From: a virus
Direction: 5' to 3' (one strand)
DNA: 35,929 nt
Virus record (IMG/VR): IMGVR_UViG_3300037189_009759
Coordinates: 1 to 35,929 of that record
Part shown: piece after piece, positions 26,479-35,845 of the stretch
Layout: every line of letters begins with the position of its first letter
How positions within the stretch are numbered: position 1 is the first letter of the stretch
Notes under the pieces: generated by a model
What the model was told of the DNA's origin: nothing
Database searches by the model: none
What the model saw: the letters and a program-made list of their open reading frames with translations, nothing else
Program-made: the position numbers and the translations under genes

Positions 26479-26910
26479 TTACCAACCTTTGATACGCTCC
26501 TTTATCTCTGTGCTAGAGATACCAGTCGTATAAGGCACATACGCCAAAACAATGCCGCGTTCATCTAACCAAGACTGAGTAAAGTTCATCTGGTCGTAAT
26601 AGTTTTTACGCGCCCAATCAGACCCGATAACGATGATGTCAGGTTTTACAGTTTCGATAGCAATACGGCTGTCAACACCGCCCACATTAGCCACAACATC
26701 ATCAACATACTTACACGACTCCAAAACCGCTTTACGCTCCGCGAAAGACATCACAGGTGACTTGCCTTTATAGTCGGCAATAAACTCGTCAGTGTTCAGC
26801 GAAACAACAACCCTGCCATACTGTGCCATTTCCTTACACCGCTTCAAAAACGCAGCGTGGCCGGCGTGGAACAAATCAAAAGTTCCACCAGTATAAATAA
26901 CTAATCCCAT
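26479..26910 (-). CDS. TagD-like cytidylyltransferase (143 aa)
   Basis: The nucleotidyltransferase signature GGTFDLFHAGH (8-18, with HxGH) and ISSTEIKERI near the C-terminus identify the glycerol-3-phosphate / ethanolamine-phosphate cytidylyltransferase family. It would make a CDP-activated alcohol or related donor. Together with the two upstream glycosyltransferases it points to synthesis or modification of a glycan or a glycerol-phosphate decoration. The ATG overlaps the end of the GT-A gene. Confidence 0.85.
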   Translation of the reverse strand: MGLVIYTGGTFDLFHAGHAAFLKRCKEMAQYGRVVVSLNTDEFIADYKGKSPVMSFAERKAVLESCKYVDDVVANVGGVDSRIAIETVKPDIIVIGSDWARKNYYDQMNFTQSWLDERGIVLAYVPYTTGISSTEIKERIKGW

Positions 26911-27548
26911 CGGTTTGCTCTCCTAACAGCCAAATCCCAAAAACCTTGCGAATAATCTTTAGCCAAACCCTTTTCGTTATACAACGCCTGGTTAGCCTCA
27001 TACGACTTACCATTCACCGAATGAAAACCACTATTCAGCGTTGACGAGTTATCGTGGAATATTTTAGCCCCAATATACTTCACAGGAACACCGTGATGCT
27101 CAACCCTACGCGACAAATCATTATCATCAAAATACAAAGGGTAAAAACGCTCATCATACAAACCCGTCTTGGCAATCATTCCCTCACCAAACACAGGCGC
27201 ACTCCACTTAGGTTCACAATCCAAAAAGTTCAGCGCATCAGTATCCACATTCTGCTCAATCTTCGCCAACGAACCCGGCGCAAAATAAGCATCATCATTC
27301 ACCATTACCCAATAAGGCGCATACGGTGTTGACTTCACAATCAGATTCCAAGCCCCAACAAGACCAAGCCCAAAAGGAACACGAATAACCCACATATTCA
27401 CAACGAAATCAGGTTTGACAGGATTCCACTCACACTTGCCAGAGTTATCCACCACAACCAAATGCTCAACAGGATAATCAATGCTCGCCAACAAACGGTC
27501 AGCCAAATCAAACCGAGTCAGCGTGGCAAAACCAACAACAGGAATCAC
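26901..27548 (-). CDS. GT-A (family 2-like) glycosyltransferase (215 aa)
   Basis: The Rossmann-like start (IPVVGFATLTRFDLADRLLA, VVVDNSGKCEWN) and the metal-binding acidic site NDDAYF (84-88) are typical of GT2-type inverting transferases. A later DDNDLSRRVEHHG corresponds to the acceptor-side acidic region. There is no membrane anchor, so it acts in the cytoplasm. The GTG at 27548 overlaps the upstream gene (GTGA) with GGAG 5 bases before it. Confidence 0.8.
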   Translation of the reverse strand: MIPVVGFATLTRFDLADRLLASIDYPVEHLVVVDNSGKCEWNPVKPDFVVNMWVIRVPFGLGLVGAWNLIVKSTPYAPYWVMVNDDAYFAPGSLAKIEQNVDTDALNFLDCEPKWSAPVFGEGMIAKTGLYDERFYPLYFDDNDLSRRVEHHGVPVKYIGAKIFHDNSSTLNSGFHSVNGKSYEANQALYNEKGLAKDYSQGFWDLAVRRANRWD

Positions 27549-28711
27549 AACAACTCCACCAAAACAGGCTTCCAGTTTGTCTTATACACGAAATCAGCGT
27601 CATACTCAGCCATACCCTCAATAGCCTCAATACTACGGCCACGACCACGCTCATACGCCTTTTCCAACGCCGAAACAATACTAGGAATGTTAGGCACAAA
27701 GAACCAAGCCAACTGAGCAGGGTCAAACAACGGCTGCCCCTCAACCAACCAACCATCACGCACAAGTTCAGGCGAAGCAGCGAAATCAGACACAATCACA
27801 GGCGTACCACACGCCTGCGCCTCAATAGTGCCAACACCAAACCCCTCACCATAAGAAGCACCCAAATACACATCCATAGCCGTGTACAAGCCCGCTAGAG
27901 CCGTTTGAGGCAACCCATAACGGTAAGCAACTTGGTCAGCGAACACAACCTGCTCAGTGGACAACCCAACAGCCTCCAACAAGTTAGTCAAATTCCAGCC
28001 ACCAAAAGACCCAAACATATCAGTATGCAAATACAGTTTCGCATCAGGCTTATCCTTAGCGAAAATGCTAAACGCCAACAAGTTCTCAGCAAACGCCTTA
28101 CGATGCACCAAACCAGAAGCCTTATTAGCAGCGTTCATACCAACAACAAAATCAGTTTCGCTCAAACCCATAAACTTACGGTTCGGCACACCCTCAATAC
28201 GGTCAGTAGGCTTAAACACCTGCTCAATAGCGTGAGGCACATAAAAAGACTTCACACCCGCACCCTGCATCAACTCGTGACCATACTTCGACATAGCCAA
28301 CGGAGTCACATTAGGTTTCTTCAACCAATCCAACACCAACGGCGGAATTGGTTTATGGTCAACAGGAATCCAAGACGCAATAGGCAACTCATCAAACTTG
28401 TTGCCCTTGAGAACCCACACATCATACAAAGTGATAAGCAAATCTTTTTGGTCAGGATGCTTAGACCGGTGATGAGCGTGATTCAGCGGAGTAACATCAT
28501 TCGAATACAAATCCGCGCCACGAGCATACTCAGGAATCTTCTTCCCACCAACAGTGACCTCACCATTAGCACCCTCACGCCCAAAGTTACTCAAAACAGC
28601 CACATCGTAACCGTCTTTCACCATACGCTTCAAAACCTGCGCAGTCTGCATACCGTAACCCGTAGCAGCATACGGGCTGTTGCTAAACCAAGAAATAGTA
28701 CCTTTACCCAT
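27545..28711 (-). CDS. GT-B (family 4-like) glycosyltransferase (388 aa)
   Basis: An N-terminal acceptor domain (SNSPYAATGYGMQTAQVLKR) and a C-terminal donor domain with GASYGEGFGVGTIEAQACGT, the E-x7-E-type nucleotide-sugar site of GT4 enzymes, are visible. GGAG 6-7 bases upstream supports the ATG at 28711. It is the first gene of the cassette, with a palindrome (28722-28740) and a terminator directly upstream, so it probably has its own promoter. Targets may be virion proteins or DNA; sequence does not decide. Confidence 0.8.
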   Translation of the reverse strand: MGKGTISWFSNSPYAATGYGMQTAQVLKRMVKDGYDVAVLSNFGREGANGEVTVGGKKIPEYARGADLYSNDVTPLNHAHHRSKHPDQKDLLITLYDVWVLKGNKFDELPIASWIPVDHKPIPPLVLDWLKKPNVTPLAMSKYGHELMQGAGVKSFYVPHAIEQVFKPTDRIEGVPNRKFMGLSETDFVVGMNAANKASGLVHRKAFAENLLAFSIFAKDKPDAKLYLHTDMFGSFGGWNLTNLLEAVGLSTEQVVFADQVAYRYGLPQTALAGLYTAMDVYLGASYGEGFGVGTIEAQACGTPVIVSDFAASPELVRDGWLVEGQPLFDPAQLAWFFVPNIPSIVSALEKAYERGRGRSIEAIEGMAEYDADFVYKTNWKPVLVELL

Positions 28712-28721
28712 TTGATTCTCC

Positions 28722-28740
28722 AATCTAATGACATTAGATT
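28722..28740. promoter_or_regulatory. Inverted repeat upstream of the glycan cassette
   Basis: AATCTAAT-GAC-ATTAGATT, a perfect 8-bp inverted repeat with a 3-base centre, lies 2 bases upstream of the ribosome binding site of the GT-B gene. On the minus strand GATAAT overlaps its edge, so it may be an operator on a cassette promoter, or a small UTR hairpin. Confidence 0.4.
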
Positions 28741-28819: not shown

Positions 28820-29374
28820 ATGAATCAGTATAAGACTTGTAGTAAATGCAAGCAAATAAAGACTTTTGATGAGTTTACGAATCATAAAAGTCACGCTGAC
28901 GGTAAAACTTCTCAATGCAGAACCTGTATCGCAAAAACAAAGCGTCAAAAATATAAAAACGATTTACAAAAATCAAAAATTGCTAATAAAGCAAATTATG
29001 TTAAGCATAAAGAAAAACGATTGGTTTATGCTAAAACACATCGCAAACCTTATGATAAACAAGCCGCTGAGTTAGGTCGTAAATGGCGCAGCGAAAATAA
29101 AGAACTTATGGCGTTTTACCAACGCGCAAGGCGAGCCAAAATAAAAAATAACTCTATTTATTATGTAAGTTCTAAAGAACTCAAAAAACTTAAAAATTCA
29201 CCTTGTTTTTATTGCGGTAATAACGATTTAATTGAGATAGACCACATTATTCCTATTGCAAGAGGAGGAAGTCACGGTATAGGAAATCTTATTTCTGCTT
29301 GCCGTGGTTGCAATAGAAGCCGACAAGATAAAACCATTATGGAATGGCGAATCTGGCAAAAGAAAACCCCCTAG
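28820..29374 (+). CDS. Free-standing HNH endonuclease (184 aa)
   Basis: N-terminal cysteine pairs CSKC (7-10) and CRTC (about 33-36) form a zinc ribbon, followed by a long Lys-rich helical region. The HNH domain is at the end: CFYCGNNDLIEIDHIIPIAR, then GNLISACRGCNRSRQ. It is on the opposite strand to all neighbours, clearly AT-richer than they are, and framed by hairpins, which marks it as a probable homing-type insertion between capsid and cassette. An AAGAG site precedes the ATG. Confidence 0.85.
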   Translation: MNQYKTCSKCKQIKTFDEFTNHKSHADGKTSQCRTCIAKTKRQKYKNDLQKSKIANKANYVKHKEKRLVYAKTHRKPYDKQAAELGRKWRSENKELMAFYQRARRAKIKNNSIYYVSSKELKKLKNSPCFYCGNNDLIEIDHIIPIARGGSHGIGNLISACRGCNRSRQDKTIMEWRIWQKKTP

Positions 29375-29425: not shown

Positions 29426-30607
29426 TTAACTAGCACCACCAGTAAACTTCTTGACGTGGGAAGTCTGGATGAGGTTTCCATCTCCACGCCAAGTCCAACG
29501 GAACACAATCTGGTCGTTCGCAAAAGCGAAGTCAGCAGAAGTGTCAAGACGGATTCCGCCAACCTCACGCACGAAGTACGAACCGAGGTCGCCGAACAGT
29601 ACCGAAGCAGCACTCGTGGCTGGCGCAGCCAAGTCAGGGTTCTCCCACAGGTTGTAACCAAGGAGCAAGTCCTGCTTGTCAGCCGACAGGCTTGGCTCGA
29701 AGATATAACGGCCGTAACCGTCTTTCAACTTACGAGCGTTAGCAATACCAGCGCGGTTCATCATAAAGCCTGCACCCGGCGCACGGCGAGCAACGCTGTC
29801 GAGCGAGAATACGAGGTCAATGATGTTGTCAGCGGTAAACGCACCCGAAACACCAGTTCCACCAGTGATAGCGGTCGAGGCGGTCTGAGCGATACCGAAT
29901 GGCTGAGTCGTACCAGTTCCGTTGGTGAGAACGGCGTTGATGGTCTGACCCATACCAATACCAATCTGCTCCGACAGGAATCCCTGCAAGTCCACAGCCG
30001 AATCCTCGATAAGTTCACGAGCAACGCGAACCAAACCACCGTACTTCCAAGACTGCAAAGTCTTAAAAGCGTTGAGGGTAGGGTCGGTGTCAGGAAGAAC
30101 CGAACCGGCAGCGGTCAGAGTACCAGTCGAGTAGGTTGCTACCGATGGAATCTGGAGAGGCTCACCCGAAGAAGTGCGAAGCAACTTCGAAGTGGTCAGC
30201 ATTGGGCCGACAAACTGAGCCTTCATAATAATCTCGTCATAGAACGAGGTTGGGATTGGCGCACCAGTAGTTGCTGGAGCAAGCGCACGCTTTTCGTGAC
30301 CAAACTCCAAACCACGCTTCTCGCCACGAGCCAGGGCGCGAATGTCAGCCTCAATGCTCGATGCGGAACTGGTTGGAATGGTGAACGATTCAGCGGCGGC
30401 AGCGAAACGCTCTTCGCGCTCTGCTACCTTGCGAGCATCCTCAATAAATGCTGCGCGGCGGTCAAGTTCAGTGTTGAGGTTCTGGAACTTCTGTTCCTCC
30501 TCGCCCGAAAGGGAGCGACCCTCAGCCTCAGCAGTTTCGATAACAGCCTTAGCCTCGTGCCACAACTTCTGGCGTTCCTCAACCTGTGCCTTTAGAAATT
30601 CAGACAT
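29426..30607 (-). CDS. HK97-fold major capsid protein (393 aa)
   Basis: Residues 1 to about 75 form a charged coiled coil (LKAQVEERQKLWHEAKAVIE, LNTELDRRAAFIEDARKVAE), the delta/scaffold domain normally removed by the prohead protease. The fold proper starts near RALARGEKRGLE and includes PTSFYDEIIMKAQ, LLRTSSGEPLQIPSV, KYGGLVRVARELIEDSAVDL and GYNLWENPDLA, all HK97 capsid hallmarks. AAGGA 6-7 bases before the ATG at 30607 selects this start over one at 30640. The gene has its own promoter and is enclosed by terminators, so it can be expressed strongly and separately. Confidence 0.92.
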   Translation of the reverse strand: MSEFLKAQVEERQKLWHEAKAVIETAEAEGRSLSGEEEQKFQNLNTELDRRAAFIEDARKVAEREERFAAAAESFTIPTSSASSIEADIRALARGEKRGLEFGHEKRALAPATTGAPIPTSFYDEIIMKAQFVGPMLTTSKLLRTSSGEPLQIPSVATYSTGTLTAAGSVLPDTDPTLNAFKTLQSWKYGGLVRVARELIEDSAVDLQGFLSEQIGIGMGQTINAVLTNGTGTTQPFGIAQTASTAITGGTGVSGAFTADNIIDLVFSLDSVARRAPGAGFMMNRAGIANARKLKDGYGRYIFEPSLSADKQDLLLGYNLWENPDLAAPATSAASVLFGDLGSYFVREVGGIRLDTSADFAFANDQIVFRWTWRGDGNLIQTSHVKKFTGGAS

Positions 30608-30655
30608 TGGTTTCCTTAAAAGTAGGGGTAATGTTGTCACCTACCGCGCTGACGC

Positions 30656-30826: not shown

Positions 30827-31042
30827 TCAGGCTGCTGGTGAATCCGAACCAACATCAGTGGTGGTATCGGAAGTCTTTTTAGTTGTCTTAGTCGAATCTA
30901 CTACAACAGTTGAAATTTCCGCAACTTTTGTAACCGATTCAGCCAAACTATCAAGAGTTTCACGAACAAAACCAACACTGGGCTTGCCCGCAAACTCATC
31001 AACAATCTGAACTGCATTTAGTATTTCATCTTTAGTGGCCAA
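30827..31042 (-). CDS. Small hypothetical head-module protein (71 aa)
   Basis: Not recognised. The helical first half (ATKDEILNAVQIVDEFAGKP, RETLDSLAESVTKVAEI) is followed by a Thr/Ser/Lys-rich, probably disordered tail. The TTG at 31042 is preferred because AAGGA is 7 bases upstream; the TTG at 31048 would almost touch it. It overlaps the protease stop region. Position between protease and capsid suggests an assembly or decoration role, but this is not shown. Confidence 0.55.
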   Translation of the reverse strand: MATKDEILNAVQIVDEFAGKPSVGFVRETLDSLAESVTKVAEISTVVVDSTKTTKKTSDTTTDVGSDSPAA

Positions 31043-31044
31043 TG

Positions 31045-32376
31045 TCAAATCCTTTTCGCCAAAAGTTCAAGTTTCTTCTGTTTCAAGTCCAAAATGTTAG
31101 CCACAGGCTCTTTCTGAACATCCTCAACCAACTTATCCACCACAGACTTCACCAAAGAAGCCTCATCAGCAGACAAGTTCTCTCCCTGCTCCAACTTGAA
31201 CAAAGAATCAGCCAAAACATTAGTATCAATGCTACGAACCTGGGCAGAAGTAGCCTCGTAGGCCGGAAAACTCACAATTGATACCTCGTGCAAACGCACC
31301 GAGTTCAAAGTGCGCTGAGAATAATCCTGCGACCAAGAATCACCATTCTTAGGCACAGTAAACCCAAACGACATATTGGCCACATCGCCGCGCTTTAGTA
31401 GGACAGCAGTATCACGACCCAACTGAGTATCAGGCAACTGCGCAACAGCCTTAAGACCGCGAGCATCCTCCATAAGAGTCAAAGTACCTGCGCGGGTGCT
31501 ACCAAGAACCTGTCCAGTGTCGTGATTCCACAGCAGTTTAATGTCATTACGCGCCTGCAAACTACGCTTAAACGCACCCGGCGCGACATATTCGGTAAAC
31601 TGCCCACCGATAGGCTGCGATGGGCTATTGAAAACAGCGGCATACCCCTCAAAAGTCATACCGTTGCTTCCCTGCACCTCGCGCAGTTCAATCTCACCGT
31701 GAGAAATACGAGTTTCGAACTTCTTATCACGGTTCTCAGGGGTGCGAACCTCCTGAGTAGGCTCTAGACGGCGCACAATCATCTGTGCAGCCTTAGCCCA
31801 ACGCATTTTGCTCGAATTCTGCTCAACATCCTCAGCCATATCAGCCGAATCAGCCAAATCTTCATCAACTTCGGCTAGAGCCTCAACATCAACAGCATTA
31901 GCGTCAGCAAAAGCGTCACCAATCATAGAACGCAACTGCCATTCCCACTTTTGATGCATATCCTGACGCTCAGCAAGATAGTTCACAATGCCCTGCTCAC
32001 CAAGTTCGTTAGCAACAGCAATAGAGTTCACAATGCACTCCAGCACATCAGCGTTGCCACGGTAAACAGCCTGGGCGCACGACACAGAGTCAAACGCCGA
32101 CAGCATTGGTTCGTCACCCTCAATGAACTGAGCCAACATAAACGGGGCATCGCCGCCAAGTTTGCGAATGTTCTCAGCAATCGGGTCTATCGAACCGTCA
32201 GCATCCTCATAAATCTCACCAAAAAACTCGTGAGCGGAAGCAAAATCAATGCCACGAACATTCCAGTGCGCTCCGTGAGCCAAAAACTTAAACGAAACCA
32301 CATCACCAAGCAAGTCGCTAAGGCGAGTAATCAAACCAGCCTTAGTGAACTCCATAGGAGCATCATCAGTCAACAT
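31045..32376 (-). CDS. Dps/ferritin-like domain fused to HK97-type prohead protease (443 aa)
   Basis: Residues about 10-155 look like a Dps-type ferritin domain: FLAHGAHWNVRG (34-42), AHEFFGEIYEDADG and DPIAENIRKLGG, with a last helix NYLAERQDMHQKWEWQLRSM. Ferroxidase ligands H37, H49, D64 and E68 have the same spacing as E. coli Dps H51, H63, D78 and E82; the D67 equivalent is Gly53, next to Glu54. An acidic linker (165-190) leads to a prohead protease (about 225-385): GYAAVFN, APGAFKRSL, LLWNHDTGQVLG (His285), VANMSFGF (Ser336) and LHEVSIVSFPAY, matching Peptidase S78. A helical tail follows. One uninterrupted frame encodes both. GGAG lies just before the ATG. The protease is certain; the role of the ferritin part is unknown. 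Confidence 0.88.
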   Translation of the reverse strand: MLTDDAPMEFTKAGLITRLSDLLGDVVSFKFLAHGAHWNVRGIDFASAHEFFGEIYEDADGSIDPIAENIRKLGGDAPFMLAQFIEGDEPMLSAFDSVSCAQAVYRGNADVLECIVNSIAVANELGEQGIVNYLAERQDMHQKWEWQLRSMIGDAFADANAVDVEALAEVDEDLADSADMAEDVEQNSSKMRWAKAAQMIVRRLEPTQEVRTPENRDKKFETRISHGEIELREVQGSNGMTFEGYAAVFNSPSQPIGGQFTEYVAPGAFKRSLQARNDIKLLWNHDTGQVLGSTRAGTLTLMEDARGLKAVAQLPDTQLGRDTAVLLKRGDVANMSFGFTVPKNGDSWSQDYSQRTLNSVRLHEVSIVSFPAYEATSAQVRSIDTNVLADSLFKLEQGENLSADEASLVKSVVDKLVEDVQKEPVANILDLKQKKLELLAKRI

Positions 32377-32400: not shown

Positions 32401-33753
32401 TTAGTCAACCTGATACACAGAGGCAGGGTTATTAGGGTCAATGCTCGATACAGACTGCAAAGCGTTGACAGGAACGCCTGTGTGAGCGATAGTTGGCAAA
32501 CCAAGAGCCGCCAACGCTTCTTCGGGCTGGAAACCAGAAGCAATAAGTTTCTGCAACATACCAACCTTTTTCTCATCAGCAACAAGGTCAGCAGCGTTAA
32601 TGTTCACATTTGCTAGTGGAACACGGTAAGCGTCACCGCCCTCAATAGGCGGGTTGTCCTCCAAACGGTGAATGTCGTTAATAGACATCCAACCGCCCTG
32701 AGTAGCAATCGAGAAACCCTGCATACGGGTCAAGAAATCTGCGCGAATAAGAGCATCAAGGTTGAACTTGATAAACGCTTGATTAGGCAACAAGTCGCTG
32801 TACGCGCGTTCAATCTTCTCCACAATCGGGCGCAAAGCGTGAGTAGTGAAGTCAATGGCCAACTGCTCCACCGAAGCACGAGCCTGAGAACCATTAGTGA
32901 TACCCAACATATGTGGTGGAATCTGCAACACACGGCAAACATCCAACACAGCGTATTCACGCGACTGCAAGAACTGGTTAGCATCATTAGGGGTGCTGGT
33001 TTGCTTGTAGGTTGCACCACCGGCTAGAACACCAGTGCGGTGTGCCTGACGGTAGCCACGGTGACGGCTATCAAAACCCTCAGCGATTTGCTTGGCTTGT
33101 TCTTTGGACAAGTTGCCCGGGAACTCGATAATGCCGGAAGTCTGCACACCGCCACCAAAGAAGCGGGCAGCGAACGACTCCAAAGCCACAGCCAAACCAA
33201 AGTTTTCCTTTAGAGCCTCAACACGACCCTTACCCTTGATAGCACCCGGCATCAACATATCGGTAATGTGAACAACCTCATCAGAAGTAAGAGGCTTATC
33301 GTTCTCACCCTGATACTTAAAGATTTTGCGACCATTCTTGCCACGCACAACATCAACAAGAGTCGGGTCAAGAGCAATCAGGTTGACAATGTTTCCCTTT
33401 TTGTCACGGAAAACACGAGTGTAAGAATTGCCCCAAATCAGCAACGAAATAACCACCTGCTGCCAATGTGACGAACCCGAAATGTCAAGGTCAGGCTTAT
33501 CCACCCATTCAGGCTTCGGGCGCACAGGAATACGCTGACCGTTCTTACGAACATAGCAATCCATAGGCAAAGTCGAAATGGCGTTGCTGATAAGCGAAAC
33601 ACCGCCATAAAAAGCGGCAATAGTCAGCGAAGAATCAGGGGTGACATTAGCACCCGACTGCGACTGCCACGCTAGAGAGTCACCAGCACCCCAAATACTC
33701 TGGAATGAGATTGCACGGCTCTCACCGTTATTACTCACGAGGCGATTGAGCAT
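32401..33753 (-). CDS. Portal protein, HK97 family (450 aa)
   Basis: It forms the dodecameric DNA entry ring. Family landmarks: TIAAFYGGVSLISNAISTLP near residue 45, LLIWGNSYTRVFRDKKGNIV, LDPTLVDVVR, VQTSGIIEFPGNLSKEQAKQ, and EYAVLDVCRVLQIPPHMLGI before the crown region. The length of 450 aa is usual for the family. AAGAG is 8-9 bases before the ATG at 33753. Its start lies within the end of the membrane-protein gene. Confidence 0.92.
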   Translation of the reverse strand: MLNRLVSNNGESRAISFQSIWGAGDSLAWQSQSGANVTPDSSLTIAAFYGGVSLISNAISTLPMDCYVRKNGQRIPVRPKPEWVDKPDLDISGSSHWQQVVISLLIWGNSYTRVFRDKKGNIVNLIALDPTLVDVVRGKNGRKIFKYQGENDKPLTSDEVVHITDMLMPGAIKGKGRVEALKENFGLAVALESFAARFFGGGVQTSGIIEFPGNLSKEQAKQIAEGFDSRHRGYRQAHRTGVLAGGATYKQTSTPNDANQFLQSREYAVLDVCRVLQIPPHMLGITNGSQARASVEQLAIDFTTHALRPIVEKIERAYSDLLPNQAFIKFNLDALIRADFLTRMQGFSIATQGGWMSINDIHRLEDNPPIEGGDAYRVPLANVNINAADLVADEKKVGMLQKLIASGFQPEEALAALGLPTIAHTGVPVNALQSVSSIDPNNPASVYQVD

Positions 33754-33897: not shown

Positions 33898-35430
33898 CTA
33901 AAAAGAATAGAAAACTGGGGTCAGTTCTTCTTCAAGTTTACTACTCACCGCACGGTCAAAACCGATGACCCCTGCAACAGCCGCGTCAATGCGTCTAAGC
34001 GAAGCACGATTCTCTTTCACAATACGCACACCCAAGTTATCTGTTTTCACCACAGCATTAGACAAATGGCGGGCAAGCAGCGGGTCGCCATCGTGCGTCA
34101 AACGCTTCTCAGACACATAATCGTAAAACTTCGCACAAGCAGTGACCATACGGCGGGCAGAAGTTGACGGATACTCAACAATAGGGATACCCGCATCGGC
34201 CAGCACTTCCATAGAGCGTTGCCAACGATACGGGTCACAAGCAACCTCACGAACCTTATGAGTGCGACAAAACTCCGCTATCTCCGCTTCCACATCCTGA
34301 ATGTTCACACGCCAATCATCAGCATCATTATCATTCTTCTCCCAAGCCTTAACCATAAAAATGTGAGGCTTCTCATCCTCAGACTTAGGGATAACCGTGC
34401 CAACAATAACCGTAGTGTCACCACTAAACGAACCATCAAAACCCAAAATGATTTCATCATCATCAGTCAACTCGCGCTCAACTTGTAACGCATCCCAAGC
34501 ACCCGTAGGCAACCACGAAGTAGCAGACGAAACCCACTGATTACAACGCTTCGTGCGGAACTCAGGCTCAGGAGTACGGCGAACAGCCGAAACAAAATCC
34601 GAACCAACACAAATATCATCAAACCCCGGATTAGCCTCACGCCAAGTCTGCTCTAACCTATGGTCAGCCTCCTGAGGTGCTTCCCACCACGCCATAAAAA
34701 ACGAGGGGTCAATAATCTCACCACGAGCAACCTTTTGCCCATATTGATACAAGTTATACGCAATCGAATCCTGACCAGTCGAATCAACTTTCACACCAGC
34801 AGTCGTAATAGCAAAAATGCCCGCCGAAATACCACCACGCGCACCACCCGCCAAAGACATAACATCAAACAACTCACGATTAGGTTGCGCGTGCAACTCA
34901 TCAAACAAAACAAGAGTCGGTGACAAACCCTCTTTCGAAAACGCCTCCGCAGACAAAACACGATACACAGAACCCGTAGAGGGAACTTCAATCGCATCCT
35001 TATACAGTTTCACAACCTCAGACAACTCAGGCTCAGCCTCAATCATCATCTTCGCGTCACGAAACACAATACGCGCTTGGTCTTTATCAGCAGCACAAGA
35101 ATAAATCTCACCACCCCTAGCACCAGCCAACAAACCCCACAAAGCCACACCAGACGCAAGAGCCGACTTACCATTCTTACGAGGCATACCCACCAAGTTC
35201 ACAGAATGAATAAACCCATTCTCATCACGCGCAAAAGCGTGACGCAACAACTCACGCTGCCAACCCCTCAACCGCAACGGCGAACCAGCCGAACCCGCAA
35301 TCGTATCCTTAGTAATCACACCAAAAGTATCAATAAACTCAGCAACCTCGTCACCAGCCCCAAACTCAACAGCATCAGCAGCAACAGGAGTCAACCAACG
35401 AGGATTCCAGTTATTCGCTACGCTTTGCAA
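33898..35430 (-). CDS. terL: Terminase large subunit (510 aa)
   Basis: The ATPase and nuclease motor for packaging. Walker A-like GMPRKNGKS (81-89), Walker B LVLFDE (173-178) with the catalytic Glu, and the ITTAG coupling motif (208-212) define the ATPase. The RNase-H-like nuclease shows GFDGSFSGDTT (D332, D338), ACDPYRW (D399) and DAAVAG (Asp about 479). The TTG at 35430 is preceded by GGAGG at 7 bases and overlaps the end of terS by 20 bases, so the two are coupled. Confidence 0.93.
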   Translation of the reverse strand: MQSVANNWNPRWLTPVAADAVEFGAGDEVAEFIDTFGVITKDTIAGSAGSPLRLRGWQRELLRHAFARDENGFIHSVNLVGMPRKNGKSALASGVALWGLLAGARGGEIYSCAADKDQARIVFRDAKMMIEAEPELSEVVKLYKDAIEVPSTGSVYRVLSAEAFSKEGLSPTLVLFDELHAQPNRELFDVMSLAGGARGGISAGIFAITTAGVKVDSTGQDSIAYNLYQYGQKVARGEIIDPSFFMAWWEAPQEADHRLEQTWREANPGFDDICVGSDFVSAVRRTPEPEFRTKRCNQWVSSATSWLPTGAWDALQVERELTDDDEIILGFDGSFSGDTTVIVGTVIPKSEDEKPHIFMVKAWEKNDNDADDWRVNIQDVEAEIAEFCRTHKVREVACDPYRWQRSMEVLADAGIPIVEYPSTSARRMVTACAKFYDYVSEKRLTHDGDPLLARHLSNAVVKTDNLGVRIVKENRASLRRIDAAVAGVIGFDRAVSSKLEEELTPVFYSF

Positions 35431-35845
35431 TCAAAGCCTCCAACTTCGACTGACGCTTAACCTCAGCCAAACCGAGCCTCGTGCGGTCAGACGGCGTAAA
35501 CCCAAGCAACGACAAGTTAGACGAAATCATACGCTCCAAGTCATTCAACTGCTTAAACATATGCCACTCATCAGGATGCTCCATAATGTAAGACTCCAAA
35601 CGAACCTTACGGTCAAGTTGCTCACACAACAACTGCAACAACTGAACATCAGTACGAGAACTAACCCACAACTCACCCCTATTAAAAACAGAATCCCACA
35701 TCTGCTGACCAGCCCACTCCAAAGGGCGAATAGGGTCAACACGACCCCCCTCAACAACCATCAACGACCCCTCCTTAGGAATAGGCCGATTACCGGGATT
35801 ACCCAACAACCTTTTTTGCTCAACAGGTTTAGCAGGATTAGCCAT
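35411..35845 (-). CDS. terS: Terminase small subunit, P27-like (144 aa)
   Basis: The N-terminus KRLLGNPGNRPIPKEG is typical of the P27 small-terminase family. It is followed by WAGQQMWDSVFNRGELWVSS and a helical region with LLGFTPSDRTRLGLAEVKRQ near the end. It recognises the packaging site and loads TerL. GGGAG lies about 7 bases before the ATG at 35845. It is the first gene of the leftward late operon. Confidence 0.88.
   Translation of the reverse strand: MANPAKPVEQKRLLGNPGNRPIPKEGSLMVVEGGRVDPIRPLEWAGQQMWDSVFNRGELWVSSRTDVQLLQLLCEQLDRKVRLESYIMEHPDEWHMFKQLNDLERMISSNLSLLGFTPSDRTRLGLAEVKRQSKLEALIAKRSE

Follow-up and report, generated by a model that had tools for sequence, protein, structure and literature searches.

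Described systems and their relation to this locus

Prohead proteases become part of the procapsid, where they cleave the scaffold region of the capsid protein as well as themselves. The cleavage of the scaffold has been described in HK97 (PMC3185693). Dps proteins are known in phages as well, as separate, unfused enzymes in the Gratiaviridae and in Lactobacillus phages (PMC8008677, PMC6669764). The Dps of the Gratiaviridae was proposed to act in the host cell, and no link between phage Dps and a head protease is described in that paper (PMC8008677). A combination of unrelated domains in a single chain that ends in an assemblin-like protease is typical of the polyvalent phage proteins (Iyer et al., 2017; PMC5512222), whose description is silent on ferritin, Dps, Tudor and polynucleotide kinase. 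Finally, the encapsulin of Myxococcus houses the ferritin-like cargo proteins EncB and EncC (PMC9321382).

We have analyzed a stretch of viral DNA of 35,929 nucleotides (IMG/VR record IMGVR_UViG_3300037189_009759, hereafter the window) in which a Dps domain and a prohead protease form part of the same protein. This protein shares with the HK97 prohead proteases (Peptidase_S78, TIGR01543) the conserved His and Ser and the gene order terminase-portal-protease-capsid, but it adds an N-terminal Dps, and its relatives add a Pnkp-like phosphatase, Tudor-like and other modules. The polyvalent proteins also put unrelated domains in one polypeptide with a C-terminal protease, whereas the fusion is the maturation protease itself and sits in a conserved head operon. 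The original prediction had compared it to encapsulins. As an analogy this holds, the common idea being a ferritin-like protein proposed to lie inside an HK97-fold shell. The likeness goes no further, as encapsulin cargo has a targeting peptide and resides in a bacterial compartment, whereas the cargo here is covalently joined to its carrier, the head protease of a virus that is filled with DNA. Instead of the dedicated shell, the cargo-loading peptide and the lack of packaging genes that define an encapsulin, we found the capsid gene of a phage together with terminase and portal genes, and its product is a capsid protein of the ordinary phage kind, including an N-terminal region of scaffold type.

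What appears to be new is the Dps-prohead protease fusion and its recurrence; unfused phage Dps and polyvalent phage proteins were known already. No account of such a fusion was found in the open-access literature (subscription papers were outside the scope of the search), and Dps-domain queries against 50,697 GenBank phages gave only distant, unfused matches. The phage group bearing the fusion is known almost only from metagenomes. A protein of 763 aa from an uncultured Caudovirales phage, annotated only as 'Prohead protease' (UniProt A0A6J7WPK9), aligns over practically the full length of the window model, with 45% identity in 481 columns (BFVD), and is, by this alignment, probably the same fusion. 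Since the alignment runs along the whole model, the fusion is probably present but unremarked in public databases.

The fusion gene and its neighborhood

The fusion is coded by an ORF of 443 aa on the (-) strand (31045..32376), consisting of Dps, an acidic linker and the HK97 prohead protease (S78). It is a single uninterrupted frame with an ATG start, within a stop-to-stop frame of 451 codons. That a ferritin-like module is followed here by an HK97 Peptidase S78 in one continuous frame had been predicted from the sequence, and the profile searches of each half proposed at that time agree with it. Ferritin (PF00210) matched residues 19-154 with E=8.8e-14 and Peptidase_S78 (PF04586) residues 228-382 with E=1.6e-49 (168.7 bits against a cut-off of 21), both above the curated Pfam cut-offs. 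The NCBIfam model TIGR01543 (proheadase_HK97) also matched, with 121 bits for a cut-off of 59. An assembly artefact joining two genes can be ruled out because many independent contigs carry the same fusion, and we consider the fusion in the window confirmed as real. We also considered an internal restart that would split the two halves. The linker does contain a methionine (Met190); however, it lacks a good ribosome-binding site ahead of it and close relatives have no Met at that place, so that this candidate was rejected.

The genes around the fusion are those of a phage head, all on the (-) strand. They start with the terminase small subunit (35411..35845, PF05119) and the large one (33898..35430, PF20441 and PF03354), followed by the portal gene (32401..33753, PF04860, 1e-74) directly upstream of the fusion, with a gap of 24 nt. 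After the fusion come an ORF of 73 aa without family match (30827..31048) and the gene of the HK97-type major capsid protein (29426..30640, PF05065, 9.6e-51). The fusion is therefore placed between portal and capsid genes, as expected for an HK97 prohead protease of the S78 family. The family match of the capsid protein spans residues 126-400, which leaves an N-terminal region of scaffold (delta) type.

Adjoining the capsid gene there is an HNH endonuclease gene on the opposite strand (28820-29374, +), within the structural operon and likely a homing-type insertion. Between the capsid gene and the downstream tail and connector genes (26479-28723, -) we found a group 1 glycosyltransferase, a likely second glycosyltransferase with no Pfam match and a cytidylyltransferase-like gene, possibly involved in glycan modification of the virion or of the host.

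The Dps domain and its metal site

The N-terminal part (residues 12-153; 31918..32343, -) is a four-helix bundle of Dps type according to Pfam Ferritin, AlphaFold2 and Foldseek. When it was compared by phmmer with the PDB, the best match was the Dps of Pseudomonas aeruginosa (8ff9, E=3.4e-12), with many other Dps proteins after it. In an AlphaFold2 model of the fusion, built with an alignment of 50 sequences, the helices of this part span residues 12-39, 45-72, 97-124 and 128-152, plus a short one in the BC loop (81-85), with pLDDT mostly above 90. The comparison with Dps structures, suggested along with the original prediction, gave a clear match of fold, as Foldseek superposed the model on the TpF1 Dps (2fjc) with a TM score of 0.87 (target length) and an rmsd of 1.7. 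Both the bundle and the short BC-loop helix of Dps are thus present in the model, and the resemblance is far above chance.

The members of the Dps family used as reference (PA0962, 8ff9; TpF1, 2fjc; CAIP, 5lbh) have in common with it the bundle with the BC helix, and four of the five ferroxidase ligands at canonical spacing. The phage version differs from them in being fused to a protease, in a fifth ligand that is replaced family-wide and in lacking a basic tail. The spacing of the ligands had been noticed before, with one of the five changed, and it is as described: H37-(12)-H49-(15)-D64-(4)-E68, and Gly53 occupies the position of the classical Asp (32173..32268, -). The assignment of these residues follows their conservation in phage Dps. 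Out of the five-ligand set of Dps (H, H, D, D, E), four are invariant in the phage members, being kept in all 112 phage Dps domains compared (67/67 fused and 45/45 other); W38 is also kept in 67/67 of the fused ones. Position 53 is Gln in 42, Gly in 18 and Asn in 3 of the 67 fused domains, the rest having other residues, and in the other phage Dps it is Gly or Gln in 45/45. In 13/13 cellular Dps of one actinobacterial family it was Asp (12) or Glu (1).

Judged from these alignments, the replaced fifth ligand is a hallmark of the phage Dps family and not a quirk of the window protein, and the second-iron-site change is consistent among the head-linked phage Dps with the rest of the site intact. 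We had considered the loss of the ligand in the window as a sign of decay, and rejected it because the replacement is family-wide. For the same reason normal dinuclear ferroxidase activity should not be assumed, and this activity may be impaired. However, Gln is also found at the fifth-ligand place in the solved CAIP of Helicobacter cinaedi (5lbh, by the phmmer alignment), so the change does not exclude function.

Protection of DNA had also been put forward. The N-terminal tail of the window Dps has no Lys or Arg and the bundle has a pI of about 4.5, so that protection by direct binding through a basic tail is unlikely, and we discarded a DNA-binding Dps as a candidate. A basic DNA-binding tail is found in some Dps only and is not a requirement of the family. 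The Dps of A. tumefaciens protects without binding DNA, as the title of entry 1o9r states.

Linker, protease and selection

After the Dps there is a linker (residues 154-219; 31720..31917, -) that is partly disordered and fast-evolving, by AlphaFold2, composition and dN/dS. Its residues 154-188 include 13 acidic and 0 basic ones, and the pLDDT fell below 50 at 172-187 and 207-218. The protease half was modeled with confidence. The Peptidase_S78 domain (residues 220-382; 31231..31719, -), delimited by Pfam, TIGR01543 and conservation, has an invariant H285 and S336, the catalytic-type His and Ser, kept in 63/63 Dps-fused and 82/82 other proteases. By AlphaFold2 and alignment, the protein finishes in a helical C-terminal tail (residues 383-443; 31048..31230, -) with the end ILDLKQKKLELLAKRI, similar in relatives. 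In pairs of fused genes the linker had the highest median dN/dS (0.22), against 0.13 in the protease and 0.10 in the Dps. The low values of the latter two indicate that both halves are kept by selection.

Relatives and repeated association

Relatives were gathered by pattern scans of viral contigs, in which Dps domains were then found with home-built profiles. A survey for the same fusion had been suggested from the start, and it was fruitful: among 112 distinct phage Dps domains, 67 were in the same ORF as an S78 protease. The loci were picked by their Dps or protease sequence and not by their neighbors, and the counts are not prevalences. The simple Dps-S78 architecture was found in the window and two other loci (L164, L166). 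Using NT for a small DUF2188-like N-terminal module and x for the phrog_2859 domain, the other architectures were NT-HAD-Dps-S78 (21 ORFs), NT-x-HAD-Dps-S78 (7), x-Dps-Tudor-S78 (41) and x-Dps-S78 (7). Related proteases without Dps bear Tudor-like, HAD or x modules in its stead, so the protease has in its N-terminal region a modular slot that can be loaded with varied enzymes. Hva1-TUDOR-like and phrog_2859 modules, for instance, are N-terminal on prohead proteases instead of Dps among L024-L038 and L082-L161.

Most relatives of the window group have a T4-Pnkp-like 3'-phosphatase before the Dps. Intact HAD domains with the T4-Pnkp 3'-phosphatase fold were seen fused ahead of Dps-S78 in L002-L023, L030, L040 and L085-L091. 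The module gave Foldseek matches to 5uj0 and 1rrc (T4 polynucleotide kinase 3'-phosphatase fold), and matched the polynucleotide kinase phrog_415 (2e-12) and, in PDB profiles, Pnkp1 (1.8e-7). The residues of the HAD catalytic motif are invariant, and the module in these head proteases appears to be an enzyme of the nucleic-acid end-healing type. The window has no HAD module, the stop of the portal gene lying 24 nt before the Dps start.

In the tree of protease domains, the Dps-bearing proteases fell in three clades (3 changes). The fused domains also need 3 changes in the Dps tree, of which at least 2 are forced by well-supported branches. On both trees the changes could be gains, or gains plus losses. 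The reversed order, with an S78-like region before the Dps, was found in L045 and L048, polyproteins of about 1,980 aa. These head polyproteins contain a phrog_2859 domain, ParB-like, DUF5824 and S78-like or portal-annotated regions and a C-terminal Dps. In another locus (L050) a Dps gene is followed by the gene of a different prohead protease, Peptidase_S78_2 (1.4e-11). Taken together, the three protease-tree clades, the reversed-order polyprotein and L050 suggest that the association between Dps and protease arose repeatedly, and a bacterial iron and DNA-protection protein was probably recruited into phage capsids more than once. A side observation in L050 (4884-6065) is that the two genes have in common about 58 bp of their 5' end, giving the same leader SWRFRDDSPIGA. 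In this single case the leader possibly serves for targeting, perhaps to the capsid, or is a chance duplication.

Unfused Dps genes also keep company with the head genes. The portal was directly upstream of the fused gene in 51/74 cases, and in 27 loci (about 14 distinct) an unfused phage Dps came immediately after a phrog_776 portal, the gap between stop-to-stop frames being from -133 to +17 nt. Fusions cut at a contig end, included in L172-L221, were not counted as unfused. In five loci (L073, L074, L076, L080 and L081) the unfused Dps is near separate genes for at least one of NT, Tudor, x and HAD, modules that occur fused in other loci. The fusion to proteases in several clades, and the usual position of the unfused versions right after the portal, are strong circumstantial evidence that the Dps belongs to the phage head.

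Proposed role and alternatives

What the data back is the fusion itself, its fold, the purifying selection with four ligands strictly kept, the recurrent association with proteases and a constant position within the head genes. The reading that we prefer, with a rough probability of 0.48, is that the Dps would enter the procapsid on the protease and stay there as a metal-binding cage protecting the genome. Since prohead proteases become part of the procapsid, a Dps passenger would enter the head, the S78 part and the C-terminal tail bringing the fusion in along with the scaffold region of the capsid protein. The Dps parts would pair and probably form cages, because the four remaining ligands are kept at the two-fold contact by which the metal site is formed, although the fused protease could hinder formation of the dodecamer. 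Next, the protease would cleave itself and the scaffold region of the capsid protein. Exposed, disordered, acidic and fast-evolving, the linker is a likely site for the cut that would free the Dps. Small fragments would exit, and the compact Dps cage of about 9 nm would be too large for the openings of the shell and remain with the DNA. There it could bind iron, possibly with slow oxidation by peroxide, and limit the harm done by Fenton chemistry to the packaged DNA while the virion is being assembled or is outside the cell. The repeated tie of Dps to head assembly points to a selective pressure on virions from oxidative or metal damage of the DNA that they package. The fusion would also be a directly testable case of iron chemistry in an HK97-type capsid, a fold common to encapsulins, and offers a natural route to load proteins into phage shells.

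More tentatively, we can envisage in these heads a genome-care kit, in which protease-borne Dps cages, joined in relatives by the Pnkp-type 3'-phosphatase, would stay to protect or mend the DNA. Such a kit would amount to a natural viral version of the encapsulins loaded with ferritin, one that arose several times and whose metal site differs from that of cellular Dps.

The main rival to protection by a passenger Dps is an architectural role, which we find doubtful. The Dps would act as an oligomerisation core that brings proteases together in the procapsid and determines how many there are or how they are spaced or activated, and any metal would be a structural staple at the subunit contact. 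This would suit a family of cage-formers in which the remaining site (2 His, Asp and Glu) is at the inter-subunit contact in known Dps, as well as the replacement, in nearly all phage versions, of the Asp needed for the second iron, and the several clades with protease and Dps fused. However, 50/79 rows of the protease tree are closely related phages without Dps, so these proteases do not need it, and the unfused Dps genes are unable to hold a protease. A mere scaffold would not require the strict retention of all four ligands either.

Lower still we place an injected effector, an improbable use of the fusion in which the Dps, and the 3'-phosphatase in relatives, would be released inside the head and leave it along with the DNA, which they would shield on entry from oxidative or nuclease attack by the host. 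The architecture does fit the polyvalent proteins, in which assemblin-like peptidases are always C-terminal (PMC5512222), and the accessory domain is a phosphatase of the nucleic-acid end-healing type. But a folded Dps cage is wider than the tail channel and could pass only as unfolded monomers. Once freed, the cages would be prevented by their size from getting out of the shell or through the tail in folded form, and this favors protection of the packaged genome over delivery.

Action in the infected cell is more improbable again. The Dps would control free iron and reactive oxygen in the cytoplasm and the fusion would provide only co-expression, along the lines of the unfused Dps of gut phages proposed to aid oxidative-stress tolerance of the host (PMC8008677). 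This leaves unexplained the repeated fusion to proteases, the fixed place after the portal and the loss of an acidic ligand that cellular Dps keep. A chance fusion without function, be it an artefact or a neutral relic, has nothing in its favor other than the substituted ligand and is practically negligible in view of dozens of independent contigs and the low dN/dS.

Hosts and a cellular relative

The protease has relatives in a Microbacteriaceae MAG and in the Pontimonas phage phiPsal1. We looked for a host prophage with the full fusion among 300 genomes from the same family as this MAG, and found none. One small genome of the family Microbacteriaceae (1.7 Mb) has a chromosomal Dps of phage type (L239 and L258; G126:C1:1546029-1546460), 51% identical to that of L059 over 143 columns. 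It is one of the 13 cellular Dps compared above, with Glu where phages have lost the acidic ligand. Located two genes away from a ferrochelatase gene, it is a candidate source or exchange partner of the phage Dps.

In a MAG labelled Betaproteobacteria, a phage-like contig of 4.7 kb (L084) contains terminase, portal, Dps-protease fusion and capsid genes. Its fusion is 92% identical to the one in the IMG/VR contig L162, so that it is probably a phage contig in a bacterial bin, and its assignment to Betaproteobacteria may come from mis-binning.
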